Below are positions 46,095 through 62,343 of a stretch of 64,000 bases of DNA, in pieces. Numbering within the stretch: the first letter of the stretch is position 1; every line of letters begins with the position of its first letter. The notes below the pieces were generated by a model that was not told where the DNA came from, did no database searches, and was given only the letters and a program-made list of their open reading frames with translations. The stretch lies in assembly GCF_000972865.1 (NCBI RefSeq), contig NZ_CP011144.1, forward strand, positions 124,001-188,000, written 5' to 3'. This DNA comes from Pseudoxanthomonas suwonensis. GTDB lineage: Bacteria > Pseudomonadota > Gammaproteobacteria > Xanthomonadales > Xanthomonadaceae. The position numbers and the translations under genes are program-made.

Positions 46095-46195
46095 GTTGTA
46101 GGAGCCGGGTTCAGCCGGCGACCCGACGCCGTTGGCACAGGCGACGCCCTCGGGGTTCCAACGCCCGTGTCGCCAGCAAGCTGGGCCCCTACAAC
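46095..46195 (+). repeat. REP-like palindromic element 8 (family A)
   Basis: GTTGTAGGAGCCGGGTTCAG left end, GCTGGGCCCCTACAAC right end. On the minus strand its end forms the TTG-TAG end of comEC. Confidence 0.88.
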
Positions 46196-48564
46196 GGCGG
46201 GTCGTCGGGGTGCCAGGAGCGGGAACGCCAGGCGCGGCGTTCGCGGACGGCTAGGCCGTCGGCGTCGAGCCAGACGCGGATCGCACCGGAGCGCGGGGTG
46301 GCCAGCACCTCGGCGCCGTGGCGCTGCCAGCGACGCACCACCGCCTCGCGCGGGTGGCCGAAGCGGTTGCCGTGGCCGGCCGCCACCAGCGCCAGGCGCG
46401 CGCCGGTGGCGGCGACGAAACCGGCCGAGGACGAGCCGTCGCTGCCATGGTGCGCGACCACCACCACGTCGGCACGCAACGCCGCCGGCTCGCGCAGCAG
46501 GCGCCGCTCGACCACCTCGCCGATGTCGCCCGGCAACAGCACCACGCCATGCGGCGACTCGATCCGCAGCACGCAGCTGGCCTCGTTGCGCAGGTAGGGG
46601 AAATGCGGCGGCGGATGCAGGAAGCCGAACCGCACCCCGTCCCAGGTCCAGCCCTGCTCCGCCTCGCAGGCGCCCTGCACGTCCACCGGCGCGCCGGCCG
46701 GCGCCAGCGATGCGTCCACCGGCACACCGCGGCGCACCGCCGGCCAACCGCCAGCGTGGTCCTGGTCGGCATGGCTGATCACCACCCGGTCCAACCGCGC
46801 GATGCCCAACGCGCGCAACGCCGGCATCACCGCGCGCTCGCCCGCATCCCAGCCGTCGCGCACCGCCGGGCCGGCGTCGTACAGCAGCGCGTGGTCGGCG
46901 CTGCGCACCACCACCGCCAGGCCCTGCCCCACGTCCAGCACGTGCAGTTCCACCCCGCCCGGGCGCGGCAGTTCGCGCGCCGGCCACAGCAGCGGCAGCC
47001 ACAGCAGCAGCGCCAATGGCCAACCCGGCACGCCGCGCGGCAGCAACAGCCAGAACGCACCGAACAGCGCCAGCGGCAACGCCCAGGCACGCGCCTCCGG
47101 CAGCCACCACAAGGCGAGCGGACTGGCCGCCATGCGCTCGAACAGCGCCCAGCTCGGATCGAAACACGCCGCCGCCGCGCGCCAGGCCCAACCGCCAGCG
47201 CCGGCATGCAACGCTTCGAGCCCGGTACCCAGCAACGACAGCGGCACCACCACCAGGCTCCACCACGGCACCGCCAGCAGGTTGGCCAGCGGCCCGGCCA
47301 GCGAGGCCTGCAGGAACAGCACCGCCCCCAGCGGCAGCAGCCCCAGCGTGGCCACGCCCTGCGCCGTCAGGAAATCGCGAAGCCAGCGTCGCCCAGCCTG
47401 CGCCGGCAAGCACCACACCAGCCAGGCCACGCCGGCGAAGCTGAGCCAGAACCCCGCCTGCAGCACCGCCAGCGGATCCACCAGCAGCATCACCGCCAGC
47501 GCCAGCGACAACGCCTGCCACGCGCCCAGCGGCCGCCGCCCCAACCGCGCGCCGGCCACCACCGCGATCATCAACAGCGTGCGCACCGTCGGCAGCGCGA
47601 ACCCGGCCACCGCCGCATAGCCGGCCGCACCCAGCACCGCCGCGACCGCCGCGGCCTGCGGGCGCGGCCACCACCGCCCCAGCGACGGGCACAGCCACCA
47701 GGCCACCACCGCCAGCCAGGCGAAGAACCCCGCGACCAGGCCGACATGGAAGCCGGAGATCGCGATCAGATGGGTCAACCCGACCGCGCGCAACGTCTCC
47801 CAGTCGGCATCGTCCAGCCCACGCGTGTCGCCCAGCGCCAGCGCCCGCACGAAGCGCGAGGACGGCGACGGCACGGCCGCCTCGATCCGCGTGGCCATGC
47901 GCGCGCGCCAGGCGTCGATGCCCGCGGCCGGCGCCAGTTCGCGCGCCAGCTGCGGCGCACGCACGTAGCCGGTGGCGGCGATCCGCTGCGCCAGTGCATG
48001 GCGGCCGGCGTCGAACCCGCCGGGATTGGCGAGCCCGCGCGGCGCGCGCAGCTTCAGCTGGAACTCCCAGCGCGCACCCGGCTGCAGCGCCATGCGCGGC
48101 CCGGCCTCCTGCGCCCCGAAATCGTCGTACCAGGACAGCTGCAGGCGCCGCCCGCGCAGCGGCTCCGGTGCGTCGTCGCCCTCCACCCGGAACTGGAAGC
48201 GCGTGCGCCGCGCCTCGTGCTGCGGCAGGCCCAGCACCTGCCCGGCGACGCGCACCTCGCGTGCCTCCAGGTCCGGCGGCAGCCACGCGGCGAGCGCCCA
48301 GCCCGCATGCAGGCCGGCCCAGCCCACCCCGACCAGCAGCGCACCGGCGGCGCGGCCGCGCCACGGCCATGTCCATGCCAGCACGCCGGCGACCAGCGCC
48401 AGCCAGCGCAGCGGCGCCGGCGGCAGCGCCGGCAGGAACAGGCCGGCCACCGCCCCGGCCAGCAACGCCGCCGCGCAGCCCAGGCCCAGTGGATGCGGCG
48501 GCGCCGGCCCGGTGCTCGCGGACGACCTGGCCCATGCGGCGACGGCGGACGCGACCGACGCCAT
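46189..48564 (-). CDS. comEC: DNA internalization protein ComEC/Rec2
   Basis: 791 aa inner-membrane channel that takes up single-stranded DNA in natural transformation. N-terminal spans and DUF4131/OB region, competence domain (DWETLRAVGLTHLIAISGFHVGLVAGF; many spans to about 510), then a metallo-beta-lactamase domain (VLDVGQGLAVVV, SHADQDHAGG near 597, GDIGEVVERRLL, VAHHGSDGSSS). Start ATG 48564 is only 2 nt after the integron integrase stop, so its ribosome site lies inside intI and translation may be coupled. Stop codon within REP element 8. Followed by exbB after 480 bp of repeats. Confidence 0.94.
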   Translation of the reverse strand: MASVASAVAAWARSSASTGPAPPHPLGLGCAAALLAGAVAGLFLPALPPAPLRWLALVAGVLAWTWPWRGRAAGALLVGVGWAGLHAGWALAAWLPPDLEAREVRVAGQVLGLPQHEARRTRFQFRVEGDDAPEPLRGRRLQLSWYDDFGAQEAGPRMALQPGARWEFQLKLRAPRGLANPGGFDAGRHALAQRIAATGYVRAPQLARELAPAAGIDAWRARMATRIEAAVPSPSSRFVRALALGDTRGLDDADWETLRAVGLTHLIAISGFHVGLVAGFFAWLAVVAWWLCPSLGRWWPRPQAAAVAAVLGAAGYAAVAGFALPTVRTLLMIAVVAGARLGRRPLGAWQALSLALAVMLLVDPLAVLQAGFWLSFAGVAWLVWCLPAQAGRRWLRDFLTAQGVATLGLLPLGAVLFLQASLAGPLANLLAVPWWSLVVVPLSLLGTGLEALHAGAGGWAWRAAAACFDPSWALFERMAASPLALWWLPEARAWALPLALFGAFWLLLPRGVPGWPLALLLWLPLLWPARELPRPGGVELHVLDVGQGLAVVVRSADHALLYDAGPAVRDGWDAGERAVMPALRALGIARLDRVVISHADQDHAGGWPAVRRGVPVDASLAPAGAPVDVQGACEAEQGWTWDGVRFGFLHPPPHFPYLRNEASCVLRIESPHGVVLLPGDIGEVVERRLLREPAALRADVVVVAHHGSDGSSSAGFVAATGARLALVAAGHGNRFGHPREAVVRRWQRHGAEVLATPRSGAIRVWLDADGLAVRERRAWRSRSWHPDDPPL

Positions 48565-48566: not shown

Positions 48567-49571
48567 CTAGAGATCCAGCGGACTGCGCACCGCCGAAGCG
48601 CCACGGCCCAGCACGTGCGTGTAGATCTGCGTGGTCGACAGGTCCTTGTGCCCGAGCAGTTCCTGCACGGTGCGGATGTCGTAGCCGGCCTCCAGCAGGT
48701 GGGTGGCGAAGGAATGGCGCAGGGTGTGGGCGCTGACCGGCTTGGCGATCCCCGCATGGGCACGGGCGCGCTTGAGCGCACGCGCCAGGACCGCATCGTC
48801 GATGTGATGGCGTCCCTGCGCCCCGGTACGCGGATCGCGCGAACGCCGGTCGGCCGGGAACAGGTACTGCCAGCCCAGGTCACTGGCGGCCTGCGGGTAT
48901 TTCCTGGCCAGCGCGTGCGGCAACCAGACCCTGCCTGCGCCGGCGGACAGGTCCTGCTCGTGGAGCAGGCGTACGCGCTCCAGCTCACGTTGCAGCGGCT
49001 CGGCCAAGGAGCGCGGCAACACCGTGCGCCGGTCCTTGCCTCCCTTGCCGTCGCGCACCAGGATCTCCTGCCGCATGAAGTCCACGTCCTTCACCCGCAG
49101 GCGCAGCCCCTCCATCAGGCGCATGCCGGTGCCATACAGCAGGCTGGCCAGCAACCAGGTGCGCCCCTGCATGTGCGCCAGCAGACGCGCTACCTCCGGC
49201 GCCGACAGGACCGTGGGCAACCGCTGCGGCCGCTTGGCGCGCACCACGTTCTCCAGCCACGGCAGCTCCGTCCCCAGAACCTCCCGGTACAGGAACAGCA
49301 GCGCCGACAACGCCTGGTTCTGGGTGCTCGATGCCACCTGCCCCAGCATGGCCAACCCGGACAGGAAATGCTCCACCTCCACCACGCCGAGCTCGCGCGG
49401 ATGCCGGCGCCCGTTGGCCGCCACGAACCGGCGGACCCATCCCAGGTAAGCCTTCTCCGTACGCAGGCTGTAGTGCTTCAGGCGAAGCCGGCGCCGGACT
49501 TCCTCGAACAACCCAGGCCTGGACCCTCGGCCTGCGTTGGATATTTCCCCGTTTCCGGGCGGATAAGACAT
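48567..49571 (-). CDS. intI: Integron integrase IntI (tyrosine recombinase)
   Basis: 334 aa, inserts and excises gene cassettes by folding single-stranded attC. Catalytic R151 ([20 protein letters not shown]), H282-x-x-R285 ([30 protein letters not shown]), H308, Y317 (TQIYTHV). The integron-specific insert between the first Arg and the HxxR box is clear ([11 protein letters not shown]...[12 protein letters not shown]...WQYLFPA...GRHH), which separates it from XerC/D. Start ATG 49571 gives the usual IntI length; a GTG-type extension to 49625 is unlikely. Oriented away from the cassette array, as in all integrons, and directly abutting comEC. Confidence 0.95.
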
Positions 49572-49738
49572 AGCGCTTCGTCCTTGAAGCATTTCCAGAT
49601 CAGCCTGGCACCATCCTCTGGCCAAGGCCGATCAGGCAAGGCACTGATCGAAGGTAGGATTTCTCCTTGACGACCCCGCCAGCACCGGATGAACATCCGC
49701 TACATACCCCCGGAAACGGGGTCTACTTAGAGTTAGGC
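49572..49738. promoter_or_regulatory. attI region and promoters between intI and cassette 1
   Basis: Non-coding 167 bp. It ends in the attI-type core GTTAGGC (49732-49738), after which cassette 1 begins (insertion between G and TT). A candidate cassette promoter on the plus strand is TTGACG (49667-49672), 18 bp, GAACAT (49691-49696). No LexA box (CTGT-N8-ACAG) is seen upstream of intI. Confidence 0.6.
49709..49721 (+). repeat. Inverted 13-bp repeat / GAAA-loop hairpin in attI
   Basis: CCCGGAAACGGGG here is exactly inverted at 49547-49559 inside the start of intI (CCCCGTTTCCGGG). Each copy alone folds as a short stem closed by a GAAA tetraloop (CCCCG-GAAA-CGGGG at 49708-49721). It sits 10 nt before the attI core. 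Confidence 0.7.
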
Positions 49739-49751
49739 GGAAGGAAGAAGC

Positions 49752-50159
49752 ATGCGTAGCAAGTCACCGCTGATAACACTAACGACTGGAATTGCAGCAA
49801 CGAGCATGGCGCTGCTTATCGCCGGACATCTCTTAATTACGCTCGATCTGTTCTTCAATTTCTTTCCAGCGACCCCTGAATTTATAGCCATGTGGGGCAT
49901 TCCGCTGTGGGCCAAAGTACTGTGGGCCACTCTCTGCGTCATTGGTGTCATTACGTTCATCATGATTTATCGTCGTCCATGGTTAGGGTTTGCTGCTTCA
50001 GCTGCGTTCTGCGCTTTCTTGTACTTCGCAAGCATCCAGCTCTGGGGAGAGGTCAAAGGTGGATTCTGGCTAGCCATCATCACGGCACTGCTTGCAGCAG
50101 TGTCTGCGGTTGGGTCTAACAATTCGTTCAAGCCGAACTTGCTTCGCAAGTCGGCTTAA
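49752..50159 (+). CDS. Cassette 1: four-span membrane protein of unknown function
   Basis: 135 aa with four hydrophobic spans (about 8-32, 45-68, 76-95, 103-120). Not recognised. The last residues NNSFKPNLLRKSA are translation of attC1, whose TAA ends the frame. Base composition is much less GC-rich than the host genes. Confidence 0.65.
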   Translation: MRSKSPLITLTTGIAATSMALLIAGHLLITLDLFFNFFPATPEFIAMWGIPLWAKVLWATLCVIGVITFIMIYRRPWLGFAASAAFCAFLYFASIQLWGEVKGGFWLAIITALLAAVSAVGSNNSFKPNLLRKSA

Positions 50160-50173
50160 CTCAAGCGTTAGGC
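50114..50173 (+). repeat. attC site 1 (60 bp)
   Basis: GTCTAAC at the left, GTTAGGC at the right. Inner hairpin AAGCCGA-A-CTTGC / GCAAG-TCGGCTT with one bulged A and a TTC loop, the classical extrahelical-base design of attC. Confidence 0.93.
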
Positions 50174-50180
50174 AGCTCTG

Positions 50181-50627
50181 ATGCATCGCGCTCACTCATG
50201 GAAGCAAACCGGCAATGTCTCGCTCTGGCACTACACGGAGAACGAGCGCAACTATCCGGGCTGGCACCTCACGGCTGATGCGGCTGGCTGCGAGTCGCTC
50301 ATTGCCCTGCTTGATGCTTTAGCCGTTGATGGCATCCCTGCATTTCGAGCTGTCGAGATCAAGCCGCCCTCCAAGGCTCAACTAGGCGTCCCAAACAACA
50401 AGGGCGGCTTAGCTGCTTGGCGCTCCCCTAGCAAGCTTCGGGCAACCTTCTCCAGCGACCCGGCAGAGTGGTCGTTCCCGCCTGACTTGGAGCCGGCAGT
50501 TCTTACAATAGGCTCGGACTGGCTAGCACCACTTCGGGAGGGCATCTCTGGTATTCCTCGCGGACGTGGTGACTACTCTATTGGCTCTGTTGGCAACGGT
50601 AGCTCTAGACTCTGGTTCTGGTGGTGA
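50181..50627 (+). CDS. Cassette 2: hypothetical protein
   Basis: 148 aa, soluble, no signal peptide. Tryptophan- and glycine-rich end (IPRGRGDYSIGSVGNGSSRLWFWW). Not recognised with confidence; begins 8 nt after the cassette boundary. The stop precedes attC2 by about 10 nt. Confidence 0.65.
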   Translation: MHRAHSWKQTGNVSLWHYTENERNYPGWHLTADAAGCESLIALLDALAVDGIPAFRAVEIKPPSKAQLGVPNNKGGLAAWRSPSKLRATFSSDPAEWSFPPDLEPAVLTIGSDWLAPLREGISGIPRGRGDYSIGSVGNGSSRLWFWW

Positions 50628-50637
50628 GTCGAGAGCT

Positions 50638-50697
50638 GCCTAACAATTCATTCAAGCCGATGCCGCTTCGCGGCACGGCTTAATTCAGGCGTTATCC
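50638..50697 (+). repeat. attC site 2 (60 bp)
   Basis: GCCTAAC ... GTTATCC. Inner hairpin AAGCCG-ATGCCGC / GCGGCA-CGGCTT. The cassette ends TTAGGCAGCTCT and AGAGCTGCCTAA are perfect 12-bp complements. Confidence 0.92.
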
Positions 50698-50979
50698 GGT
50701 GGTGCATGGCTGTCCTCGCGCATCCTCCTTCGGGCCAGGTCATTGCGGCGTCCCGCATCGGCTCCGTTTAGCAGTCCTCAGCGCCCCGTCACCGGCCCGC
50801 ACATCGCTCCGTTCGGCAACTTCATTGCCCAGTTGCGCCCACTGTCACGCTTCTTCGGCCGCCGCCCAGCTGATGCCTAGGTCGGGCAAGCCCTGTCGCC
50901 GCCACTTGTGGCATGCTCGGCTGGCAGTGGCGGTGCTGGGGAGCACAGGCCTAATCGGCCAGCCTCGCCGGGCACCACC
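50698..50979. ncRNA. Cassette 3: probable non-coding cassette
   Basis: 282 bp homologous over its length to cassette 4, but conserved DNA blocks are read in different frames in the two, so the GTG-started frame (50699-51025, 108 codons) is unlikely to be a gene. Shared blocks include GTCCCGCATCGGCTCC, CTTCTTCGGC.GCCGCC, TCGGGCAAGCC, GGCATGCTCG and GGCGGTGCTGGGGAGCAC. Ends GGTGGTGC / GCACCACC are complementary. A structured RNA, promoter or recombination-only cassette are options. Confidence 0.45.
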
Positions 50980-51039
50980 GCATAACCATTCATTCAAGCC
51001 GACGCCACTTCGTGGCGCGGCTTAATTCAAGCGTTATAC
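50980..51039 (+). repeat. attC site 3 (60 bp)
   Basis: GCATAAC ... GTTATAC. Inner hairpin AAGCCG-A-CGCCAC / GTGGCG-CGGCTT. Left core has one departure from RYYYAAC. Confidence 0.9.
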
Positions 51040-51322
51040 GGTAGTGCGGAAGGCGCCTCGCCGCTTCTTCCTTCGGCCAGGTCATCGCGGCGTCCCGCAT
51101 CGGCTCCGGTTCGTAGTCCTTACCGTCCTCGCCACCTGCCCGTACACCGCTCCGCCAGGTCGCTTCATTGCCCGCCTGCGATCACCGTCCCACTTCTTCG
51201 GCGGCCGCCTACCTCATGGCATCTCGGGCAAGCCACATTGCCAGTGCTTATGGCATGCTCGCCCAGCGGCGGCGGTGCTGGGGAGCACGGGGCCAGGCCT
51301 TGGGGGCTCGCTGGGCACTACC
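51040..51322. ncRNA. Cassette 4: probable non-coding cassette, homologue of cassette 3
   Basis: 283 bp. Ends GGTAGTGC / GCACTACC are complementary; compared with cassette 3 the A-T pair in this arm is replaced by G-C, a compensatory change. The frame 51044-51328 (94 codons) matches cassette 3 only in its outer thirds. No ribosome site is seen. Confidence 0.45.
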
Positions 51323-51382
51323 GCCTAACAACTCATTCAAGCCGAACCTGCTTCGCAGGTCGGCTTAATTCAAGCGTTAGAC
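51323..51382 (+). repeat. attC site 4 (60 bp)
   Basis: GCCTAAC ... GTTAGAC. Inner hairpin AAGCCGA-A-CCTGC / GCAGG-TCGGCTT; compared with attC1 the T-A pair is C-G, compensatory. Confidence 0.93.
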
Positions 51383-51397
51383 CGCTAAGGGAGAGCA

Positions 51398-51823
51398 ATG
51401 AACTCCACAGTCCTCGCAGTCGCATTGCTGCTCCCAATCACCGCTCTCGCGACCGATCATGGGACAACGATTCCAGCCCAGTTCATCGGCAGCTGGGCCG
51501 GCAGCCCTACCTCCTGCGGCTCCGACGCTGACGATCTAGTCCTCCGTATAGACCCTCATCACATCTCCTATTGGGAGAGCGGTGGTCCAATCAAATCGGT
51601 TGTTCTTCGCGGTAGCAACGAGATCGCGTTGATTTCGGAACTCTCCGGCGAGGGCGAGACTTGGCTTGCTACGGCAAAGTTCGAATTATCTTCGGATGGG
51701 GCCAGGCTAACGGACAGCACAACCATTCCTGGTGAGGAGATTGTGCGGTACCGGTGCCCAACACAGTCCGGAGCGCGGTCTAACAATCCGTTCAAGCCGA
51801 ACTTGCTTCGCAAGTCGGCTTAA
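51398..51823 (+). CDS. Cassette 5: secreted protein, paralogue of cassette 7
   Basis: 141 aa with a signal peptide (MNSTVLAVALLLPITALATDHG, cleavage after about residue 19). Mature part: IPAQFIGSWAGSPTSCGSDADDLVLRIDPHHISYWESGGPIKSV..., two Cys (TSCGSD and YRCPTQ) that could form a disulfide. Reminiscent of small lipocalin-like periplasmic proteins with a GxW start (FIGSWAG), but not firmly assignable. The tail NNPFKPNLLRKSA is attC5 read-through. Preceded by GGGAGA 5 nt before ATG. Confidence 0.72.
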   Translation: MNSTVLAVALLLPITALATDHGTTIPAQFIGSWAGSPTSCGSDADDLVLRIDPHHISYWESGGPIKSVVLRGSNEIALISELSGEGETWLATAKFELSSDGARLTDSTTIPGEEIVRYRCPTQSGARSNNPFKPNLLRKSA

Positions 51824-51837
51824 CTCAATCGTTAGGC
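51778..51837 (+). repeat. attC site 5 (60 bp)
   Basis: GTCTAAC ... GTTAGGC. Inner hairpin identical to attC1. Cassette ends TTAGACCGC / GCGGTCTAA are perfectly complementary. Confidence 0.93.
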
Positions 51838-51841
51838 CGCT

Positions 51842-52195
51842 ATGAGACTCAACAGGTTCTGCATTGTGTTGATTGCCTCCTTACTTGCTGGCTGCGCCAC
51901 TGGCGAGTCTGGCACCGCGGCAAGTGAGTGCGACGTTTCATGGATTGAAGGCAGTCAACTCTCTCCTCAGAGAGCTTGTGAACTGCGTGTGCTGGCAAAG
52001 CGGTGTGCCACATCTGACCGCTGCCAGATCCAATGTGAGGCTAAAGGCGGACTGTCAAACATTGGGGGTGGATGTGCGCATGTATGCAGCGGCGGGGGCG
52101 GACAAACGGATGAGGCCATTGCCAAGAATGGCGGTGCATTTGCTACGGAGGAGTCGGTCGGTGAATTAACACTCGAAGTGCAACGACCCGCATAG
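51842..52195 (+). CDS. Cassette 6: small lipoprotein, 3' end cut by IS30-type element
   Basis: 117 codons as it stands. Lipobox LLAGC (MRLNRFCIVLIASLLAGCATG, Cys18). Cysteine-rich mature part (CDVSW, ACELR, RCATSDRCQIQCEAKGG, GGCAHVCSGGGG). The last residues (from about TLEVQRPA) come from the inserted element. Joining the flanks across the insertion gives GELTCGA followed by TAA inside attC6, so the original protein was only a few residues different. Not recognised beyond lipoprotein. Confidence 0.7.
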   Translation: MRLNRFCIVLIASLLAGCATGESGTAASECDVSWIEGSQLSPQRACELRVLAKRCATSDRCQIQCEAKGGLSNIGGGCAHVCSGGGGQTDEAIAKNGGAFATEESVGELTLEVQRPA

Positions 52196-53209
52196 CTCTT
52201 TGATTCGTTCGATGGGCGTTTTGTAGCCATGGCGCTTCCTCGGTCGGGAATTGAGCTTGTGAGCGATGAGGTCGCAGTGGTGTTGCCGTAGTCGTGCGAG
52301 GCTGCGTCGTTTTGGGAAGTACTGCCGAAGCAAACCATTGAAGTTCTCGTTACTGCCACGCTGCCATGGGCGGTGCGGGTAGGCGAAGTAGCAGCGTACT
52401 CCGGTGGCGTCTTCCAGTGCTTTGTAGCCATGGAACTCGGTGCCGTTGTCCCAGGTAATGGTCTTGAAAGGCATGCCGCTGTCGCGGATGAGTTTCAGCG
52501 TGGCGCGGTTCACGGCAGTGACGGTGCGATGAGGGAGCTTGGCGACCAGGGCTATTCCGGAACTGCGCTCCACCAGCGTGAGCAGGCAGTCGCGTTCGTC
52601 GACGGTGCCGATGACGGTGTCGCCTTCCCAGTGGCCGGGTTCAAGTCTGGTCTCGACCACTTCTGGTCGGGTGTCGATCATGGGCTTACCCTGCAGCCGC
52701 CCGCGCTTCTCGGGCCCGATGGCACGTTTGCGACGTCGTTTGCCTCCCTGGCGCAGGGACGATCGCAGCACGCCTCCGCACCGGGTGTCCTGGCATACGT
52801 GCCGATAGATAGTCATGTGGCTGATCCGGGCCACGTCATTGAGCACGAGCCAGTGGGCGATCTGCTCGGGACTCCACTGCTCGTGCTGGAGCAGGTACTC
52901 GATGGCTTCGTAGACGGCCTCGCCATGGTGGCGCACGCGACGCGACCGTCGGCGGCGGCCATTGGTGCGCTCCTGGGCCTTGCTGGGCCGGTAGGCACCA
53001 TCGGTGGCGTGACAGGCATTGCGGCGAATCTCGCGACTGATTGTGCTGGGGCTCCTTCCCAGGATCCGGGCGATCGAGCGCCGTGACAGGCCCTGTCGAT
53101 TCAGGACGCCCAAGGTGTATCGTTCCGGCTCGGTGAGCTGGCTGTACATGAGGGATCGTCTCTTGGCCGAGTGATCCCCTCCAGTCTGCCAGCTCACCTC
53201 TCCATCCAT
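52166..53209 (-). CDS. IS30-family transposase
   Basis: 347 aa DDE transposase. N-terminal helix-turn-helix (LTEPERYTLGVLNRQGLSRRSIARILGRSPSTISREIRRN), then catalytic core with WEGDTVIG (D), TWDNGTEF (D) and NENFNGLLRQYFPK (E). The conserved start is probably MYSQLTEPERY (internal Met at residue 21, 53149) rather than 53209. Intact, so the element may be active. Confidence 0.93.
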   Translation of the reverse strand: MDGEVSWQTGGDHSAKRRSLMYSQLTEPERYTLGVLNRQGLSRRSIARILGRSPSTISREIRRNACHATDGAYRPSKAQERTNGRRRRSRRVRHHGEAVYEAIEYLLQHEQWSPEQIAHWLVLNDVARISHMTIYRHVCQDTRCGGVLRSSLRQGGKRRRKRAIGPEKRGRLQGKPMIDTRPEVVETRLEPGHWEGDTVIGTVDERDCLLTLVERSSGIALVAKLPHRTVTAVNRATLKLIRDSGMPFKTITWDNGTEFHGYKALEDATGVRCYFAYPHRPWQRGSNENFNGLLRQYFPKRRSLARLRQHHCDLIAHKLNSRPRKRHGYKTPIERIKELCGSLHFEC

Positions 53210-53241
53210 GGGCGGCGCAGGTGTTGCACTTACCTTGTTAA
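52166..53241 (-). mobile_element. IS30-family insertion sequence in cassette 6
   Basis: About 1.07 kb between TTAA copies (52166-52169 and 53238-53241), which look like the target duplication. Imperfect terminal inverted repeats CACTCGAAGTGCAAC / CAAGGTAAGTGCAAC. It carries one transposase gene. It splits a lipoprotein cassette from its attC6. Confidence 0.82.
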
Positions 53242-53249
53242 CCTGCGGC

Positions 53250-53309
53250 GCCTAACAATTCATTCAAGCCGACGCCGCTTCGCGGCGCGGCTCAATTCAG
53301 GCGTTAGAC
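53250..53309 (+). repeat. attC site 6 (60 bp)
   Basis: GCCTAAC ... GTTAGAC. Inner hairpin AAGCCG-ACGCCGC / GCGGCG-CGGCT. Belongs to the lipoprotein cassette split by the IS. Confidence 0.92.
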
Positions 53310-53324
53310 CGCTAAGGGAGAGCA

Positions 53325-53750
53325 ATGAAGGCCACAGTCCTCGCAGCTTTATTGCTGCTCCCAATAACCGCCCTCGCGGCCGATCATGGGGTAACGATTC
53401 CAGACCGGTTTGTCGGCAGCTGGGCCGGCAGCCCTATCTCCTGCGACTCCGACGCTGACGACCTAACCCTCCGCATAGACCCTCATCACATCTCCTATTG
53501 GGAGAGCGACGGCCCAATTAAGTCGGTTGTTCTTCGCGGTGGCTATGAGATCGCGCTGATCTCGGAGCTCTCCGGTGAGGGGGAGACTTGGCTTGCTACG
53601 GCAAAATTCGAATTGTCTTCCGATGGGACCAAGCTGACGGACAGTACAACCATTCCTGGCAAGGAGATCGTGCGGTACCGGTGTCCTACACAGTCCGGCG
53701 CGCGGTCTAACAATTCGTTCAAGCCGAACCTGCTTCGCAGATCGGCTTAA
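53325..53750 (+). CDS. Cassette 7: secreted protein, paralogue of cassette 5
   Basis: 141 aa, same length as cassette 5 protein and nearly the same throughout (signal MKATVLAALLLLPITALAADHG; FVGSWAGSPISCDSDADDL; ESDGPIKSVVLRGGYEIALISELSGEGETWLATAKF identical in parts). Tail NNSFKPNLLRRSA is attC7 read-through. Same leader GACCGCTAAGGGAGAGCA before the ATG. Function unknown; two copies suggest duplication or repeated capture. Confidence 0.72.
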   Translation: MKATVLAALLLLPITALAADHGVTIPDRFVGSWAGSPISCDSDADDLTLRIDPHHISYWESDGPIKSVVLRGGYEIALISELSGEGETWLATAKFELSSDGTKLTDSTTIPGKEIVRYRCPTQSGARSNNSFKPNLLRRSA

Positions 53751-53764
53751 TTCAAGCGTTAGGC
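53705..53764 (+). repeat. attC site 7 (60 bp)
   Basis: GTCTAAC ... GTTAGGC. Inner hairpin AAGCCGA-A-CCTGC / GCAGA-TCGGCTT with one mismatch. Confidence 0.92.
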
Positions 53765-53775
53765 CGAACACCAGC

Positions 53776-54087
53776 ATGAATGCACATTCGCCAGTTAAAA
53801 GAGCGTCTTTTGCCGCCTTAGCTATTGCATATATCTGCGGCTGGATTGTTTTGGCCTTCTTCGGCGTCAAACTCTGGCACACGTACTGCGAGGGGTTTGG
53901 TTGTACCGGCATTGGAATTGCTTGGCTCGCCTGGTCTGGAGCATATGCCCTCGCCTTGCTCTTAGGCTTTCTGGCGTCTCGCACTCAACACGGAGCATCT
54001 AGGCGCGTCATGCGCTATGTTCTCGTCACCCAGGTCGCTGCTGGAGTATGGCTGCTCGGGTATTGGGCAGTTCATGCAGCAACCTAA
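53776..54087 (+). CDS. Cassette 8: three-span membrane protein
   Basis: 103 aa, hydrophobic spans at about 10-32, 44-66 and 80-100. Two Cys (YCEGFGCTG) in the first outer loop. Not recognised. The TAA stop is inside the left core of attC8. Confidence 0.65.
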   Translation: MNAHSPVKRASFAALAIAYICGWIVLAFFGVKLWHTYCEGFGCTGIGIAWLAWSGAYALALLLGFLASRTQHGASRRVMRYVLVTQVAAGVWLLGYWAVHAAT

Positions 54088-54141
54088 CAATTCACTCAAG
54101 CCGGGCCCGCTTCGCGGGTCGGCTTAATTCAGGCGCTAGGC
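54082..54141 (+). repeat. attC site 8 (60 bp)
   Basis: ACCTAAC ... GCTAGGC (right core has C for the second T). Inner hairpin AAGCCGG-GCCCGC / GCGGGT-CGGCTT. Confidence 0.9.
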
Positions 54142-54178
54142 CGTGGAAGAACCATCCCGTCAAACTCATGGAACTCAA

Positions 54179-55261
54179 ATGGGGTACACATCAGTGCGAC
54201 GCATCGTGAAGATTCTAGGCTTTGTACTGATCGCAACCATCGCGATACTGCTTGTGGTTGGGCTTCGCCCCTTCATCGATCGAGACGCAGCCGCTACCAA
54301 TCCCGTCCCTCTGGTGGAGTCTCCGCTACCGCCAGAAGAGGCTGAGAATGTCCGGAGATACATAGAGGCCGAGGCAAACCCAATCGATGCATTCGTTGCG
54401 TTGCGTGGAGACAAGATTCTGATGGAATACGGGGATGTCGACATCCCCATGAACTTGGCCTCCGCTCGGAAGAGCGTCGTTAGCTTGCTGTTCGGCATAG
54501 CATCCGACCGCGGGTTGATCGATTTAAACGAAACACTTGGAGAGCTCGGCATCAATGAAAGTCGAACTCCATTGAGAGATGTAGAGAAGCAAGCCACGGT
54601 TGAACATCTTCTGCAATCCCGGTCAGGAATTTACCTTCAGTCTGGTGCGGAGACGGTTGAGATTAAAGAAGGCCGCCCTGGCCGTGGCCAGTTTTCCCCG
54701 GGGGAACACTATTTCTATAACAACTGGGACTTCAATGTTCTAGGTGCAATCTTCGAGCAGAAGACCGGCCTTTCCATCGGAGAAGCCTTGGACGCTTGGC
54801 TTGCTGTGCCCCTGGGAATGCAGGATTTCAGCCGCGAGCACGTTCTTTATGATCGAAAGGGGTCCGACTCTGACTACAGAACGTATCGAATCCATATGAG
54901 CGCACGCGACCTTGCTCGGCTTGGGGCACTGGTAGCGCAAGACGGCATGTGGAACCAGACCAGGATCGTTTCGGCCGAATGGATTGATAGAAGCACGACG
55001 GCCTACTCAGCTACCGAAGGCCCCTTCTACGACGGGTTCGGTTATTCATGGTGGTTGAACTCCGGGCTCAATGCCGTGATGGCTGATGGCTGGGGTGGCC
55101 AATACATGCTAGTGGATCGGGATCACGACCTGACACTAGTGACTCGCCGAGACACAGGGAACTCAATTCTTGGATTCCTAGTATTCAGCGGACTCAAGAA
55201 GCAGGGACATCCAGCGGACATACAGAAGCTGTACAAGCTCATACGACAGATGCCAGATTGA
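54179..55261 (+). CDS. Cassette 9: serine hydrolase of the beta-lactamase/PBP-like fold
   Basis: 360 aa from ATG 54179 (a GTG at 54143 is possible). One N-terminal membrane span (about 7-29). Class C-like serine hydrolase motifs: S95-x-x-K98 (NLASARKSVVSLLFG), Y-x-N (YFYNNWD), and GWGGQYMLVDRDHDLTLVTRR where the third motif is expected. Similar proteins include 6-aminohexanoate-dimer hydrolase/EstB-like esterases and D-aminopeptidases; true beta-lactam hydrolysis is doubtful. It would face the periplasm. Confidence 0.82.
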   Translation: MGYTSVRRIVKILGFVLIATIAILLVVGLRPFIDRDAAATNPVPLVESPLPPEEAENVRRYIEAEANPIDAFVALRGDKILMEYGDVDIPMNLASARKSVVSLLFGIASDRGLIDLNETLGELGINESRTPLRDVEKQATVEHLLQSRSGIYLQSGAETVEIKEGRPGRGQFSPGEHYFYNNWDFNVLGAIFEQKTGLSIGEALDAWLAVPLGMQDFSREHVLYDRKGSDSDYRTYRIHMSARDLARLGALVAQDGMWNQTRIVSAEWIDRSTTAYSATEGPFYDGFGYSWWLNSGLNAVMADGWGGQYMLVDRDHDLTLVTRRDTGNSILGFLVFSGLKKQGHPADIQKLYKLIRQMPD

Positions 55262-55280
55262 ATCCTGATAGGCCGCCACG

Positions 55281-55340
55281 GCCTAAGAATTCATTCAAGC
55301 CGAAGCCGCTTCGCTGCGTGGCTTAGTTCAGGCGTTAGAC
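55281..55340 (+). repeat. attC site 9 (60 bp)
   Basis: GCCTAAG ... GTTAGAC (left core ends AAG in place of AAC). Inner hairpin AAGCCGAAGC / GCGTGGCTT less regular. Cassette ends CTAGGCCGTGG / CCACGGCCTAAG are complementary. Confidence 0.85.
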
Positions 55341-55369
55341 CGCACTTTCACATCTGAACCTCGACGAAC

Positions 55370-55765
55370 ATGAAGAATTTTCTACTGTGCCTGGCAATCC
55401 TGCCCTTCACTGGCAACGTTCTGGCTCAGGCCTGCTGGTCCGAGTGGGAACGAGATGGCGAGTGGCTCATACGAACGAACTGCACCCAGAACGTTTCGAT
55501 CCCAAACATCGATCGAGTCTGCAGGTCACGCGTTCAGAGCGATGAACCCCGAACTGCTGCCTCTTGTCCGGCGACAGCCAAAGTCCTCAGCAAGGGCAGC
55601 GTCCGGGTTGAACCGGTTGACTTTCGATGCATGGGCCTGAAGCCACCCGCCGCAGGTGGGGCGGCCAATGTCTTCTATTACGGCCTTGGCAAGAACCAGG
55701 AGGAGTTGGAAGTCGTCCGAAATCTGTGCGTACAGTTCGGTGGCAAATGGGAAGACGTCAAGTAG
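55370..55765 (+). CDS. Cassette 10: secreted Cys-rich hypothetical protein
   Basis: 131 aa with a signal peptide (MKNFLLCLAILPFTGNVLAQ, cleavage about residue 19). Mature part has five Cys (ACWSEW, RTNCTQ, VCRSR, SCPAT, FRCMG, plus NLCVQF near the end). Not recognised. Confidence 0.68.
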   Translation: MKNFLLCLAILPFTGNVLAQACWSEWERDGEWLIRTNCTQNVSIPNIDRVCRSRVQSDEPRTAASCPATAKVLSKGSVRVEPVDFRCMGLKPPAAGGAANVFYYGLGKNQEELEVVRNLCVQFGGKWEDVK

Positions 55766-55781
55766 GCGCCGGTTCGGTGCG

Positions 55782-55928
55782 GCCTAACCCCTCGCTCAAG
55801 CACCTCTCGCTCAAGCGCCGACGCCTTAAGGCAGCCACCGTCTGGCCGCTTTAGGCGGTCGCTGCATATTATCCTTCCGCGCCCAAGCCGCGTCCGCCTC
55901 CGGACGCGGCTTGGCTCGAACGTCAGGC
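55782..55928 (+). repeat. attC site 10 (atypical, about 147 bp)
   Basis: GCCTAAC at the left, GTCAGGC at the right; middle contains the palindrome AAGCCGCGTCCG-CCTC-CGGACGCGGCTT (55894-55913 region). Longer and unrelated in its middle to attC1-9. Boundaries are supported by complementarity of the cassette 10 ends (TTAGACCGCAC / GTGCGGCCTAA). Confidence 0.7.
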
Positions 55929-55992
55929 GTCACAAGCAAGTTCGCTGGTCACTCGCCCACCCAGAACACACATCCGCGCTGGTCACCTTCTT

Positions 55993-56712
55993 ATGCGTAC
56001 TGTCAGATTCTTCGCTTTACTTGCAGCGGTCACAGTCGGCTTGGCTGTCACAGGGTGGCAGATCGCCAAGTCACGGACGTACCAGACGTTTGGAGAACTG
56101 ATCTCCGAAGTACATACGGAGAGCCGCCTTGTTGCCCTCACGTTCGATGACGGGCCTGCGCCTGAAGCAGTATCCAAGCTACTCCCGGTGCTGCATGAGC
56201 ATGGAGTCAAAGCGACATTCTTTGTCACTGGCGCCGAACTTGAGCGTTATCCAGAAGCAGCGGCAGCCCTGGTGGCAGCCGGGCATGAGCTAGGCAACCA
56301 CTCCTACTCACACCCGAGAATGGTGTTCATCAGTCAAGCGAAAGTCGCATCGGAGGTCGAGAGAACAGATGAACTGATTCGGGCGGCCGGACAGCTTGGC
56401 GACATCCACTTTCGCCCCCCGCATGGAATCAAGGCTATTTCCTTGCCATATTTTCTGAAAAAAACGGGCCGTCGAACCGTGATGTGGAGCCTCGAACCCG
56501 ATTCAGGCAGTCAAATTGCATCGTCAAGCAACACCATCACGAAGCATGTAATTGATAACTCGAAACCCGGGGATATAATCTTGCTGCACGTCATGTACAA
56601 CAGTCGTCGCGCGTCTCTGGAAGCAGTTCCTGGAATCATTGAAGGGCTTCAACTACAGGGTTTTCAATTCGTGACTGTTTCGGAGCTATTGGCGGAAGAG
56701 TCGTCGCGGTGA
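55993..56712 (+). CDS. Cassette 11: polysaccharide deacetylase (NodB domain)
   Basis: 239 aa. N-terminal span (about 5-25) then a CE4 NodB domain: motif 1 TFDDGP (D52, D53), motif 2 H103-S-Y-S-H107-P, motif 3 RPPHG, motif 5 ILLHV. Metal-dependent removal of acetyl groups from peptidoglycan or other GlcNAc polymers is the family activity. Membrane-tethered or secreted. Confidence 0.9.
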   Translation: MRTVRFFALLAAVTVGLAVTGWQIAKSRTYQTFGELISEVHTESRLVALTFDDGPAPEAVSKLLPVLHEHGVKATFFVTGAELERYPEAAAALVAAGHELGNHSYSHPRMVFISQAKVASEVERTDELIRAAGQLGDIHFRPPHGIKAISLPYFLKKTGRRTVMWSLEPDSGSQIASSSNTITKHVIDNSKPGDIILLHVMYNSRRASLEAVPGIIEGLQLQGFQFVTVSELLAEESSR

Positions 56713-56713
56713 C

Positions 56714-56832
56714 ACCTAACCCGACGATCAAGCCGACGCGCCACGACGCCACTGCCGGCCGCGCTACGCTTGTGGTTGCTCCGCGCGGCCAGGACTGCCT
56801 TACTCCGCGCGCGGCTCAGCTCTACGTTAGTC
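56714..56832 (+). repeat. attC site 11 (atypical, about 119 bp)
   Basis: ACCTAAC ... GTTAGTC with inner arms AGCCGACGCGCC... and CGCGCGCGGCTCAGCT. Resembles longer attC sites of other integrons. Cassette 11 ends (TCAGGCGTCAC / GTGACACCTAA) are largely complementary. Confidence 0.72.
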
Positions 56833-56861
56833 CCGTTGAGATACTTCCGAAGGAATCGCAT

Positions 56862-57668
56862 ATGCCCCGACTCTTGTTGCTCGCACTGCTTTCCATGTCC
56901 TTCAATGCAAGCGCGATCGTGATTCGAGATGACGTTGATGACTCAAGATATCGGGCTCCGGCGTCTGAGTTTCCTGCTTTAGTTGACATGCCTGGCGAGG
57001 GGCACGGTGTATTGATTGCTTCGCAGTGGGTTGTTACCGCTGCGCATGCCATCACATGGCAATCTGAAATCAAACAGGCAAGCATTAACGGGGTACCGAG
57101 AGACGTTGACCACATCGTGATCCACCCCGGATACAAAAAGCCCCCGCACGAACTCCTTGACCAGGCGCTGGCCACTTGGGATTGGACGCTTTTCAGGGCG
57201 CTGCTCTCCTCCTCGGATGACATCGCGCTTGTAAGACTGGCGCAGCCCGTTACTGACGTCTCTCCTGTGGCAATCAACAAGAGCGATGAGGAGTTCGGAC
57301 AAATCATCAAGATCATGGGAAAAGGCGCTACGGGCAACGGAGTCACTGGCTACGAATTCGGTGATTCCCACCGCACCGAGCTTCGCCGTGCGTACAACAA
57401 AGTCACCAGCGCCCACGGCCGCTGGCTCTGCTACATGTTCGACAAGCCATCGGAAGCCCTGCCCCTGGAGGGTGGTTCAGGGAGTGGTGACAGCGGTGGG
57501 CCAATCCTCGTCCAGGCTGAGAGGGATTGGTTGTTGGCCGGACTGACTTCATGGGCAGACCCTCAAAGCACTATCAGGACGCCCGGCCGATATGGCCAGA
57601 TCAGTTGCAATGTCCGCCTGAGCCATTACAAAGACTGGATTGAAAGCGTTACCTCTGCACAGCCGTAG
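56862..57668 (+). CDS. Cassette 12: trypsin-like (S1) serine protease, secreted
   Basis: 268 aa from ATG 56862, with GAAGGA 8 nt upstream. Signal peptide to about residue 18. Catalytic triad H62 (VVTAAHA), D120 (DDIALVRLAQPV), S211 (GSGSGDSGGPIL). Chymotrypsin-fold protease with an N-terminal insertion between His and Asp. Target unknown; could act on cell-wall or foreign proteins. Confidence 0.9.
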   Translation: MPRLLLLALLSMSFNASAIVIRDDVDDSRYRAPASEFPALVDMPGEGHGVLIASQWVVTAAHAITWQSEIKQASINGVPRDVDHIVIHPGYKKPPHELLDQALATWDWTLFRALLSSSDDIALVRLAQPVTDVSPVAINKSDEEFGQIIKIMGKGATGNGVTGYEFGDSHRTELRRAYNKVTSAHGRWLCYMFDKPSEALPLEGGSGSGDSGGPILVQAERDWLLAGLTSWADPQSTIRTPGRYGQISCNVRLSHYKDWIESVTSAQP

Positions 57669-57673
57669 GTGGG

Positions 57674-57734
57674 GGCTGACCATTCCATTCAAACCGAACG
57701 CGCTTCGCGGGTCGGCTTGATTCAGGCGCTGGAC
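57674..57734 (+). repeat. attC site 12 (degenerate)
   Basis: GGCTGAC ... GCTGGAC, 61 bp, with inner sequence ATTCAAACCGAACGCGCTTCGCGGGTCGGCTT of the same type as attC1-9 but both cores altered. Last recognisable attC of the array. Confidence 0.7.
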
Positions 57735-57778: not shown

Positions 57779-58681
57779 ATGTTCACAAGGCGCGATTTCC
57801 TGACTACCTCCATGGCAGCAGGCGCACTTCTAGCCATGCCTGCCGCCGCAAAACCTGCTGCTCGCCGCTTTGACGCCGCCGAGCAGCTTCGGACGCTCGA
57901 AGTGGGCCCTGCACGTCTGGGCGTTTGTTTCCTAGACACTGCCACCGGCGAAGCCAGTGGCAACCGCATCGAGGAATACTTCGCACTGTGCTCGACGTTC
58001 AAACTGGCACTCGTCTCCGCCTACCTGCGCGAAGCAGATCAGGGGCGAATTAATCTTGATGAGGTCCTGGTCTATACAGAAGCCGATCTCTTACCTTGGG
58101 CACCTGTGACGCGCAAGAATCTTGCCAAAGGCGGCTTGAGCATTGCCGAACTGGCGCAGGCGGCCCAGGAGATGAGCGATGGTGCTGCGGCCAATCTTCT
58201 GGTCAGACGCCTTGGCGGTCCGGCCGCCGTCACGGCCAAGATCCGCGAGATGGGCGACATTGTGACCCGGCTTGACCGCTATGAACCGGATCTGGGATTG
58301 GTGCTTTCCGCTGATCTTCGCGATACCACATCGCCCTTGGCGATGGCACAGCTCGTTCGTCGGATTACGACCGGCGACATTTTGCAGCGTGGCTCAAGGG
58401 AACGCCTTCTGCACTGGATGCAAAACACGAAAACTGGCTTCAATCGGCTGCGTGCTGGTCTCCCCGCTGAGTGGCGTTCCGGGAACAAGACCGGAACCGG
58501 ACGCACGGAGGGAACAACCAACAAATGCAACGATATCGCGATCACTTTCCCGCCAAGCCGGAGCCCGATCATCATCGCTACCTACTTCGATAGCGGCGAA
58601 TATACTGAACAGACTGAGGCCAGGCATGAAGCCGTTCTCGCCGAGGTGGGCAGGATCGCCGCCCAGTGGGCCATTAGCTAG
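57779..58681 (+). CDS. Class A beta-lactamase (Tat-type signal)
   Basis: 300 aa. N-terminus TRRDFLTTSMAAGALLAM fits a twin-arginine signal. Active-site motifs: S72-T-F-K75 preceded by C71, S133-D-G135 (SDN has Gly at the third place), E169 in RYEPDLG (catalytic Glu; Gly where Asn170 is usual), K237-T-G. Known enzymes with such single changes (BlaC SDG; GES-1 Gly170) are functional, so activity is likely. It follows attC12 but has no attC of its own downstream, so it either lost one or marks the host side of the array. Regulator ampR not adjacent. Confidence 0.88.
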   Translation: MFTRRDFLTTSMAAGALLAMPAAAKPAARRFDAAEQLRTLEVGPARLGVCFLDTATGEASGNRIEEYFALCSTFKLALVSAYLREADQGRINLDEVLVYTEADLLPWAPVTRKNLAKGGLSIAELAQAAQEMSDGAAANLLVRRLGGPAAVTAKIREMGDIVTRLDRYEPDLGLVLSADLRDTTSPLAMAQLVRRITTGDILQRGSRERLLHWMQNTKTGFNRLRAGLPAEWRSGNKTGTGRTEGTTNKCNDIAITFPPSRSPIIIATYFDSGEYTEQTEARHEAVLAEVGRIAAQWAIS

Positions 58682-60259: not shown

Positions 60260-60391
60260 GCGGTTCCGGCGATCGCCGGCTGGCGTTGCGTGTGCGGCCG
60301 GCTTGCGCCCGGCCTTGGCCCGCTCGCCTCCGACCCGGCGCGGGTTCCGCTACAGTGCCGGCCTGGGCAGCCGACCGGACCGGGACACTCC

Positions 60392-60691
60392 ATGCCGCAT
60401 CGCGTCGAGATCCACTACTGCACGCAGTGCCGCTGGCTGCTGCGCGCCACCTGGATGGCCCAGGAACTGCTCGCCACCTTTGACGGCGAACTGGATGAGC
60501 TGGTGCTGCAGCCCGGCAGCGGCGGCGTGTTCGAGATCCGCGTGGACGGCGAACGGATCTGGTCGCGCGCCGACGACGGCGGTTTCCCGGAGATCGCGGT
60601 GCTGAAGCAGCGGGTGCGCGACCGCATCGCGCCGGGACGCGACCTGGGCCATGTCGACCGGCCGCGCGCGGCCACGCCCGGCGAGGCGTGA
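60392..60691 (+). CDS. SelT/SelW/SelH-like thioredoxin-fold protein
   Basis: 99 aa, Rdx family. Redox motif C10-T-Q-C13 (VEIHYCTQCRWLLRATWMAQELLATF), where selenoproteins carry CxxU; here Cys. Redox partner unknown. Confidence 0.9.
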   Translation: MPHRVEIHYCTQCRWLLRATWMAQELLATFDGELDELVLQPGSGGVFEIRVDGERIWSRADDGGFPEIAVLKQRVRDRIAPGRDLGHVDRPRAATPGEA

Positions 60692-60758
60692 CCGGCTGCA
60701 CCGTCGGCGTCGAGGCCGGCGGATACACTCGCCATTCCCCGGTCCCGACGGAAACTGC

Positions 60759-61187
60759 ATGACTCCCCTGCTCCGCGCCTCGCGCCTGTCGCTGCTGCTG
60801 GTCGCTACCCTCGCCTGCCTGCCGGCGGTCGCTTCGTCCACGCTCGACGGGGCCTGGCGGCTGGAGGCCGGCGAGTTCGTCGACGGCGAAGGCCAGCTGG
60901 TCGACTACGCGGCCTTGAAGCTGCAGGGACTGAAGGTGATCGCCGACGGCCATTTCGCCTTCACCAGCACCCAGGACGGGCGCTTCTGGGCTGGCGGCTC
61001 GGGCAGCTTCGTGGCCGATGCGGAGCGCTATGTCGAAACGCCGACGATGGCGTCCTATCCGCTGCACGGCGACGGCAGCTACCGCTTCAGCTACACGCTG
61101 GAAGGCGATACCTGGACGCTGGAGCGGCACGAGGACGGCAGGCGGGTGGAGCGGGAGGTGTGGCGGCGGGTGGGCGACGCTCGCTGA
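60759..61187 (+). CDS. Secreted hypothetical protein (lipocalin-like)
   Basis: 142 aa with signal peptide to about residue 26 (LSLLLVATLACLPAVASS). Mature part LDGAWRLEAGEF...FAFTSTQDGRFWAGGSGSFVADAERYVETPTM...YRFSYTLEGDTWTLERHEDGR resembles small beta-rich proteins with a G-x-W start. A fragment of this gene is repeated at about 61764-61855. Confidence 0.75.
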   Translation: MTPLLRASRLSLLLVATLACLPAVASSTLDGAWRLEAGEFVDGEGQLVDYAALKLQGLKVIADGHFAFTSTQDGRFWAGGSGSFVADAERYVETPTMASYPLHGDGSYRFSYTLEGDTWTLERHEDGRRVEREVWRRVGDAR

Positions 61188-61307
61188 GCCGTCGGCGACG
61201 CAGGACGCCAGCCGCGGACCATCCGCTCGCCCGGTACGGGTAGCCGAGCCTGCCGCCTCCTCCGGCAGCTCGTTCAATCCGACGCCACTTCACGGAGCGA
61301 CATCCCC

Positions 61308-61754
61308 ATGAAGCAAGTATCCACAATCGCCTTCCTGTCCATTCTTCTCGTTTCGTCGCCGACGCTGCCGGTAAGTGGAGGCCAGGACAACAGAAGGCTG
61401 GTCCTGTCATTGCCAGCCGGCGGATGCACGCTGATGATGTTCCCGGATGGTTCCGGGAGGATCCACTACGGCGCCGCTCCCTGGGTCGTCCATGTAGCTG
61501 CACATACCTTCGATTTCGAGCACGCGCTGCAGTCGTTCCTTCCGAACGCGCTGCCCTGGCGCGCACGGGGGCAGTCCGATATCGAACTTGCCGGCGTGAC
61601 TTTCCCCGGGACCAACGAAACGAGCCTCACCGAAGATACGGTTCTGGTGCGCAGCCTGCTCGAACAAGGATGGGAAGCACGCCTTCCACCCGAAACGGAA
61701 CCGGATGAGGGCAAGGCACATGCCCGGATAAAGGGGGCTTGTGATTTCAAGTAA
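61308..61754 (+). CDS. Secreted hypothetical protein
   Basis: 148 aa with signal peptide (STIAFLSILLVSSPTLPVSG). Mature part has FPDGSGRIHYGAAPWVVHVAAHTFDFEHALQSFL. Less GC-rich than its neighbours and wedged between the full gene at 60759 and its broken copy at 61764. A piece like the left half of an attC (61270-61300) lies just upstream, so it may be a stray cassette gene. Confidence 0.62.
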   Translation: MKQVSTIAFLSILLVSSPTLPVSGGQDNRRLVLSLPAGGCTLMMFPDGSGRIHYGAAPWVVHVAAHTFDFEHALQSFLPNALPWRARGQSDIELAGVTFPGTNETSLTEDTVLVRSLLEQGWEARLPPETEPDEGKAHARIKGACDFK

Positions 61755-61763
61755 TTGCCCGGT

Positions 61764-61860
61764 TCGCCTTCACCACCACACAGGACGGACGCTTCCAGGC
61801 CGGCGGCGCAGGCCGCTTCGTGGCCGATGCGGAGCGCTAGGTGGAGACGCCGCAGCGACA
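61764..61860 (+). pseudogene. Broken partial copy of the gene at 60759
   Basis: About 90 bp nearly identical to the part at 60951-61045 (TTCGCCTTCACCA, CAGGACGG.CGCTTC, TTCGTGGCCGATGCGGAGCGCTA). A TAG (61838-61840) stops the frame where the parent reads TAT, and the rest is missing. Confidence 0.75.
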
Positions 61861-61962
61861 GGGGACTATTCCGACACCGGGCCGCGGCGCAGGCCGACGG
61901 CGGCGATCGGCGCGCAAGGCCAAGCTGGTCGCATCTGCAACACCGGCCCGGCGCCGGAAAGG

Positions 61963-62226: not shown

Positions 62227-62262
62227 GCACCTGATGTGGCTGGCGGCTGGCAGCAGGCCGCG

Positions 62263-62325: not shown

Positions 62326-62343
62326 AAGGCTGGCGCCGCAGCT

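Follow-up and report, generated by a model that had tools for sequence, protein, structure and literature searches.

A sedentary chromosomal integron of Pseudoxanthomonas suwonensis with intI abutting comEC, and a possible link of cassette capture to DNA uptake

Integron integrases (IntI) cut the folded bottom strand of attC sites, recombine this folded single-stranded DNA with attI and so insert cassette circles there, while ComEC passes one strand of DNA inward during uptake. Here we describe a locus of Pseudoxanthomonas suwonensis at which the genes for these two proteins adjoin. The stretch analysed (64,000 nucleotides, positions 124,001 to 188,000 of NZ_CP011144.1; below, the window, to which coordinates refer unless another locus is named) carries at 48567–57734 an integron with an intact IntI, an attI core and 12 attC sites with compensatory stem changes. 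The closest described systems differ from it in their surroundings. The sedentary integron of Vibrio cholerae (IntI4/IntIA, PDB 2a3v) has an integrase of similar sequence, but its intI is under LexA whereas the window's intI lies next to comEC. The Xanthomonas integron at ilvD (PMC12444791), as far as the available part of that account goes, is alike in its IntI, its attC arrays, its cargo of mostly unassigned function and its attC clusters away from intI, but its intI lies downstream of ilvD whereas that of the window abuts and precedes comEC on the same strand. An Xanthomonadales-like group of attC sites, common to Lysobacter, Luteimonas, Pseudoxanthomonas and others, has also been described (PMC8352920); the window's attC sites resemble it by description, and the part of that account available, unlike the window, makes no mention of a comEC neighbour. 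Judging by titles and abstract openings in the open-licence PMC literature, which is no proof of absence, we found no paper on intI adjoining comEC; the only match within PMC9024848 belongs to the DOI of a reference it cites.

The intI–comEC junction

The features on which the argument rests lie at the left end of the integron.

46189–48564, minus strand: comEC, with DUF4131, Competence and metallo-beta-lactamase-fold regions (PF03772 E 1.3e-58, PF13567, PF00753).
48567–49625, minus strand: intI, the integron integrase gene (TIGR02249, PDB 2a3v), given as its longest open reading frame (ORF), with the true start probably inside.
49707–49738, plus strand: attI region, read from sequence, with a GTTAGGC core at 49732–49738 and a C4/G4 inverted repeat beside the core.

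The stop codon of intI ends at 48567 and comEC starts at 48564 on the same strand, leaving a 2-bp gap. A survey of 297 genomes of the family found IntI in 192 (E 1e-60) and ComEC in 291 (E 1e-100), and both genes could be placed in 176 of the 192, the other 16 being left out because intI was fragmentary, comEC was not matched at 1e-100 or completeness was low. intI abuts comEC in 22 of the 176, spread over five genera (4/16 in the window's genus, g1, 1/1 in g12, 2/9 in g13, 9/13 in g16 and 6/13 in g28), and in 0/124 genomes of other genera; as genes on different contigs were counted as not abutting, 22 is a lower bound. Three of 80 loci taken from titled records also have comEC beside intI (two Pseudoxanthomonas and Luteimonas aestuarii, all Lysobacteraceae), and it should be noted that two of the three are contigs also in the survey and that some of the 80 lie on short contigs. 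Counting the 22 survey genomes together with L034, comEC is predicted at all 23 junctions to start somewhere between a 4-bp overlap and an 8-bp gap. The proposed intI–comEC transcription unit accordingly has both genes on one strand, operon-like spacing and recurrence. At 49 other intI loci (one of them included twice) the next downstream gene is convergent in 37, codirectional in 11 and without a call in one, by a GC-frame test which called comEC codirectional in 20 of the 23 linked loci and gave no call in three.

The integrase itself is sound. The first-pass annotation, made from the letters alone, had read it as intact with the integron-specific insert, and the protein scores 478.9 bits against TIGR02249 (cut-off 265) and aligns to Vibrio IntI4 (PDB 2a3v, residues 42–351, E 7.5e-86) across the extra integron-specific segment and the R, K, H-R, H and Y boxes. 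A full IntI match occurs only once in the 3.89-Mb single-contig genome, besides two partial matches (E about 1e-14) that are presumably Xer-type recombinases. The attI core noted earlier is likewise present, and by eye 18 of the 23 upstream stretches from comEC-linked loci show a similar layout, core and shared layout together pointing to a candidate attI beside intI. In the region of the intI start and attI there is an inverted pair, CCCCGTTTCCGGG / CCCGGAAACGGGG, at 49547–49559 and 49709–49721. A search of the window against Rfam at gathering thresholds yielded five tRNAs and nothing else.

The integrases found at this position are not of one descent. In a tree of 72 IntI rows chosen from linked and other loci, the comEC-linked IntI need nine changes, at least four of them forced by well-supported branches. 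A single clade was rejected for the 22 linked IntI (approximately unbiased (AU) test, p 2e-6, three poor rows removed) and also within g16 (nine rows, 2e-28), g28 (six rows, 5e-4) and g1 (three rows, 4e-4). Since the linked IntI do not form one clade, the slot is held by different integrases. Similarity of ComEC to that of the window, by contrast, is ordered by genus, and we read the whole as one slot in which the integrase has probably been replaced in place, repeated arrival being the less likely course. The outer side of the slot is marked by the genes of the far flank (60389–64000), whose names are our assumption.

60389–60676, plus strand: SelT-like gene.
From 60831, plus strand: D4 gene.
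62491–63216, minus strand: LolD-like gene.
63221 onwards, minus strand: LolC-like gene.

In relatives without intI at comEC, SelT-, D4-, LolD- and LolC-like genes lie near comEC (lolC/lolD-like genes in 16 of 19 such stretches, SelT-like in nine), and three linked g16 stretches also have lolCD. As lolCD lies on the far side of the array in the window, the integron is flanked in both genera by the lolCD side and by comEC.

An alternative is an ordinary sedentary integron whose place before comEC is a neutral accident and whose co-expression with comEC has no role in capture. Here intI would have landed long ago in a permissive lolD–comEC interval, the spacer would have shrunk and alleles would later have been swapped by homologous recombination. 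The interval upstream of comEC is indeed variable in relatives without intI there, and the pairing is confined to five genera. The details of the junction follow the host genus and not the IntI lineage (g1 has TAG, g16 has TGA with an ATG or GTG close behind it, and g28 has an ATGA or GTGA overlap), the pattern expected if alleles were replaced in place at a single old junction, and the intI 3′ ends of same-genus linked pairs are slightly, and weakly, more alike than expected; gene conversion of intI 3′ ends at comEC is suggestive but weak. Against this, several unrelated IntI lineages hold the slot in each of three genera, always with operon-like spacing, whereas other intI loci mostly have convergent neighbours, and drift should leave some longer spacers or broken intI genes whereas only 1/22 linked intI has stops (G282; a stop flagged in G266 falls outside the ORF that was read). 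Whether intact intI are in excess at comEC was judged by eye, and we make no such claim. We regard the neutral course as possible though doubtful.

The explanation that we prefer, at a probability of roughly 0.6, is that of a sedentary integron at comEC in which intI and comEC are read together and cassette capture is coupled to DNA uptake. The two genes would share one message, on which termination after intI and re-initiation would lead to translation of comEC, so that the integrase would be produced alongside the import channel for single-stranded DNA. Foreign cassettes could then be captured as they enter, in the form of the single-stranded attC that IntI recombines, and a competence link would stand in place of SOS control. 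Cassettes of V. cholerae are captured during natural transformation according to PMC8946536, which in the part available names ComEC only as a channel, and PMC3108266, in its available part, reports that in Xanthomonadaceae there is no recognition of the usual LexA site; as that site would not apply in the family, a competence link could replace SOS. With dprA and pilQ present in the genome, natural competence of the source strain is plausible. Both co-expression of intI with comEC and any benefit of it to cassette capture are inferred. The more specific proposal, that intI–comEC is bicistronic and translationally coupled, wired to competence and not to SOS, that integrase would appear exactly when the import channel does, and that selection keeps an integrase in the slot despite replacement in several Lysobacteraceae genera, is put forward only tentatively.

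Several points weigh against these proposals. A codirectional neighbour, judged by direction, is found at 11 of the 49 other intI loci too. In the window's genus the pairing is limited to four of 16 intI-positive genomes, the integrons lying elsewhere in the rest, and the comEC start codons are predictions. The same picture would result if intI had been inserted upstream of comEC long ago and the spacer had since been lost. The clade tests within genera may also be affected by mosaic intI genes, and because the intI genes of G000 and G239 show mosaic similarity the result for g1 calls for caution.

The attC sites and the cassette array

The 12 attC sites and the outer coordinates of the first-pass annotation stand, with one adjustment: where nine sites of 60 bp had been counted there are ten if the degenerate last one (57675–57734, 70 bits with model R2) is included. 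These ten align without gaps at a mean column identity of 87%, and two long sites read from sequence (55782–55928 and 56714–56832) differ from them. Two models were built from the ten, R1 with the inner helix mis-registered and R2 with the register corrected, so that their matches to those ten are circular; R2 finds the long site 56714–56832 at E 0.04 and R1 touches 55782–55928 at E 0.56. The compensatory stem changes described earlier were borne out, paired cells making up 93.8% in the attC stem against 86.5% in shuffles (corrected register), with 12 double changes against 3.7 and a covariation score matched by 0/500 shuffles. Bottom-strand folding is clearly better than in shuffles at nine of the 12 sites, those at 55281, 56715 and 57675 not clearly beating them (z 0.37, −1.0 and −1.6). 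R1 finds attC in 20 of 21 comEC-linked loci (among the best 300 of 493 matches), the exception, L124, having less than 0.5 kb upstream of intI, and no match of R2 fell below E 0.1 in the 19 comEC loci that lack intI. Beyond the 7-bp core, the bases outside R″ pair with the start of their own cassette at a mean of 4.25/8, against 2.67/8 for the starts of other cassettes (permutation p = 4e-4, a comparison which needs no attC model). As integrated circles would pair ends with their own starts, this excess fits circle insertion, and the array thus bears the signature expected if its cassettes were inserted as circles.

The cassettes and the gene that follows them are listed below, all on the plus strand.

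49733–50173: cassette 1, ORF 49752–50159, membrane protein by inspection, no family; attC 50114–50173.
50168–50697: cassette 2, ORF 50181–50627, no assigned function; attC 50638–50697.
50692–51039: cassette 3, apparently non-coding; attC 50980–51039; 88% identical to a copy in one of the genome's remote attC clusters.
51034–51382: cassette 4, paralogous to cassette 3 and likewise apparently non-coding; attC 51323–51382; 99.1% copy in the remote cluster.
51377–51837: cassette 5, ORF 51398–51823, secreted by inspection, no assigned function; attC 51778–51837.
51832–53309: cassette 6, ORF from 51842 (lipoprotein-like), host to an IS30-family element; attC 53250–53309, intact.
53304–53764: cassette 7, ORF 53325–53750, paralogue of cassette 5; attC 53705–53764.
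53759–54141: cassette 8, ORF 53776–54087, membrane protein by inspection, no family; attC 54082–54141.
54136–55340: cassette 9, ORF 54143–55261, serine hydrolase of beta-lactamase fold (PF00144 E 2.2e-23); attC 55281–55340.
55335–55928: cassette 10, ORF 55370–55765, secreted by inspection, no assigned function; long attC 55782–55928.
55923–56832: cassette 11, ORF 55993–56712, polysaccharide deacetylase (PF01522 E 6.6e-32); long attC 56714–56832.
56827–57734: cassette 12, ORF ending at 57668, trypsin-like protease (PF00089 E 7.9e-15); degenerate attC 57675–57734.
57779–58681: class A beta-lactamase gene just past the last attC (NF033103 259.5 bits, cut-off 200).

Ten cassettes carry plus-strand ORFs, that of cassette 6 being interrupted by the insertion sequence (IS), whose minus-strand transposase is the sole exception to this orientation; the earlier statement that all cassettes lie on the strand away from intI therefore holds for the cassette ORFs but not for the transposase. 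The description of the cargo as mostly membrane, secreted and envelope-active proteins of no known function is fair, families having been assigned by profile and membrane or secreted character by inspection. Cassettes 5 and 7 are identical at 122 of 142 aligned positions, stop included. Cassettes 3 and 4 have no common reading frame, as their paralogous blocks are shifted by single bases, and each has short ORFs. This apparently non-coding family, with conserved blocks, occurs in three genomes (window 50698–51382; L125 13246–13585 and 16656–16955; L138 8266–8609). As a structured RNA the pair has a predicted fold and some double changes, but the covariation term is unfavourable (+2.7 kcal/mol) and no RNA is claimed. 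PADLOC, run on 10 proteins, gave nothing convincing as defence cargo, the best hit being a weak LmuA match to the trypsin-like protease (E 0.007). Several cassette ORFs extend into attC and share a tail encoded by it (NNSFKPNLLRKSA-like; 50118–50159, 51782–51823 and 53709–53750). The class A beta-lactamase gene is either a flank gene or a last cassette without attC; its product has a twin-arginine translocation (TAT)-like signal, other matches in the genus are at most 47% identical and those among the best 5000 plasmid records are below 60%.

That gene, and a G+C content lower in the array (57.7%) than in the window (70.1%), might suggest a mobile integron, borne by a transposon or plasmid and recently inserted in the chromosome. 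However, the integron lies on a single 3.89-Mb chromosome contig, its lolCD-side and comEC flanks are common to relatives, its homogeneous attC type is shared across the family and its IntI is only about 75% identical to the nearest found. We have therefore rejected a mobile origin as extremely improbable on the strength of the shared flanks, transposon ends, transfer genes and other carrier genes not having been searched for specifically. The chromosomal setting, the complete platform and the ten sites at 87% identity agree with the class that had been proposed from the homogeneous attC sites, and sedentary chromosomal integron is supported as the right one. As this is an already known type, the integron itself is not new. 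Absent from the first-pass annotation were the junction with comEC, the IS30-family element of cassette 6, the apparent lack of coding in two cassettes, the attC clusters distant from intI and the class A beta-lactamase gene past the last attC.

In the loci of related species that were compared, six of the 12 cassettes have no DNA match of more than 100 bp outside the source genome, cassette 6 is matched only via the IS and the other five have only diverged matches (70–81%). Array content is not shared in order with relatives, so that an array identical in all of them, which would have spoken against this class, was not what was found. One relative has a very long array with at least 103 attC matches (G237:C1 762765–825966). 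Within the source genome, and among the best 150 candidates, there are at least eight attC at 2.467–2.470 Mb, far from intI, at least seven and one partial at 1.513–1.519 Mb, pairs near 1.336 and 1.363 Mb and single sites near 1.480 Mb and, as a weak match (E 0.001), near 3.859 Mb. The five remote attC stretches fetched (L211–L215) gave no IntI match. The 2.47-Mb cluster (L211 1804–4619) repeats cassettes 3 and 4 in their order, with identities of 88% and 99.1%, the copy of cassette 4 reaching the latter figure over 342 bp at a distance of 2.3 Mb, which indicates that cassettes are copied or moved between arrays, cassette 4 recently. An identical IS30-family IS also occurs in two arrays. The other remote attC clusters without an integrase are L212 1774–7638, L213, L214 and L215. 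A relic array, no longer recombining and kept by inertia, would account for the degenerate last attC, the weak scores of the two long sites and the three sites that fold no better or little better than shuffles, but sits badly with an intact IntI, good folding at the other nine and a near-identical cassette in a distant array, and we consider it very unlikely.

An IS30-family element at the attC edge

52160 to about 53247, minus strand: IS30-family element, ends by copy comparison; transposase 52166–53209 (Pfam HTH_38 and rve); right end separated by 2 bp from the R″ box of attC.

The transposase has 11 copies in nine of the 297 family genomes at E 1e-100, and all 11 loci contain attC. In all nine copies with the right end, 17 nt separate its conserved GCACTTAC from the YCTAAC of an attC R″ box; these nine (window, L216, L217, L218, L219, L220, L222, L223 and L226) come from seven genomes of seven genera and share a single orientation. 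The adjoining attC is whole by the model in seven of the nine and is cut short further on in L216 and L217. The two further copies are truncated. Three-base target duplications fit, by eye, three of the eight copies with both flanks. Thirteen copies of distant relatives (38–48% identity, nine other genomes of the class) had no attC by R2, a weak control because R2 is tuned to the attC of the family and those genomes may lack an integron.

The IS1111-attC elements are insertion sequences that target attC, and the present element is alike in this respect. IS1111-attC elements are mentioned in PMC12444791 and PMC11089894 (available parts), and IS1111/IS110 elements encode a DEDD transposase (PMC11187229, available part), whereas the window's element has HTH_38 and rve and is IS30-like, which places it outside IS1111-attC. 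It also ends outside R″, so that the insertion itself leaves attC whole, unlike that of IS1111-attC. The element looks like a member of a putative attC-edge-targeting IS30 group distinct from IS1111-attC. No report of IS30 at attC was found in the open-licence PMC literature, including the available parts of PMC12444791, PMC11089894 and PMC8527097, which is no proof of absence.

Gene capture and DNA uptake in the family

An IS30 group at the attC edge would be a second, unrelated kind of attC-aware transposon. The pairing of intI with comEC opens a way to test whether gene capture is linked to DNA uptake, and the recurrence of one slot with different integrases provides a natural comparison of linked and unlinked species within a genus. 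If the link is true, it would answer how integrons are controlled in one family where LexA does not bind the intI promoter, and it would explain how cassettes are met in the recombinogenic single-stranded form.

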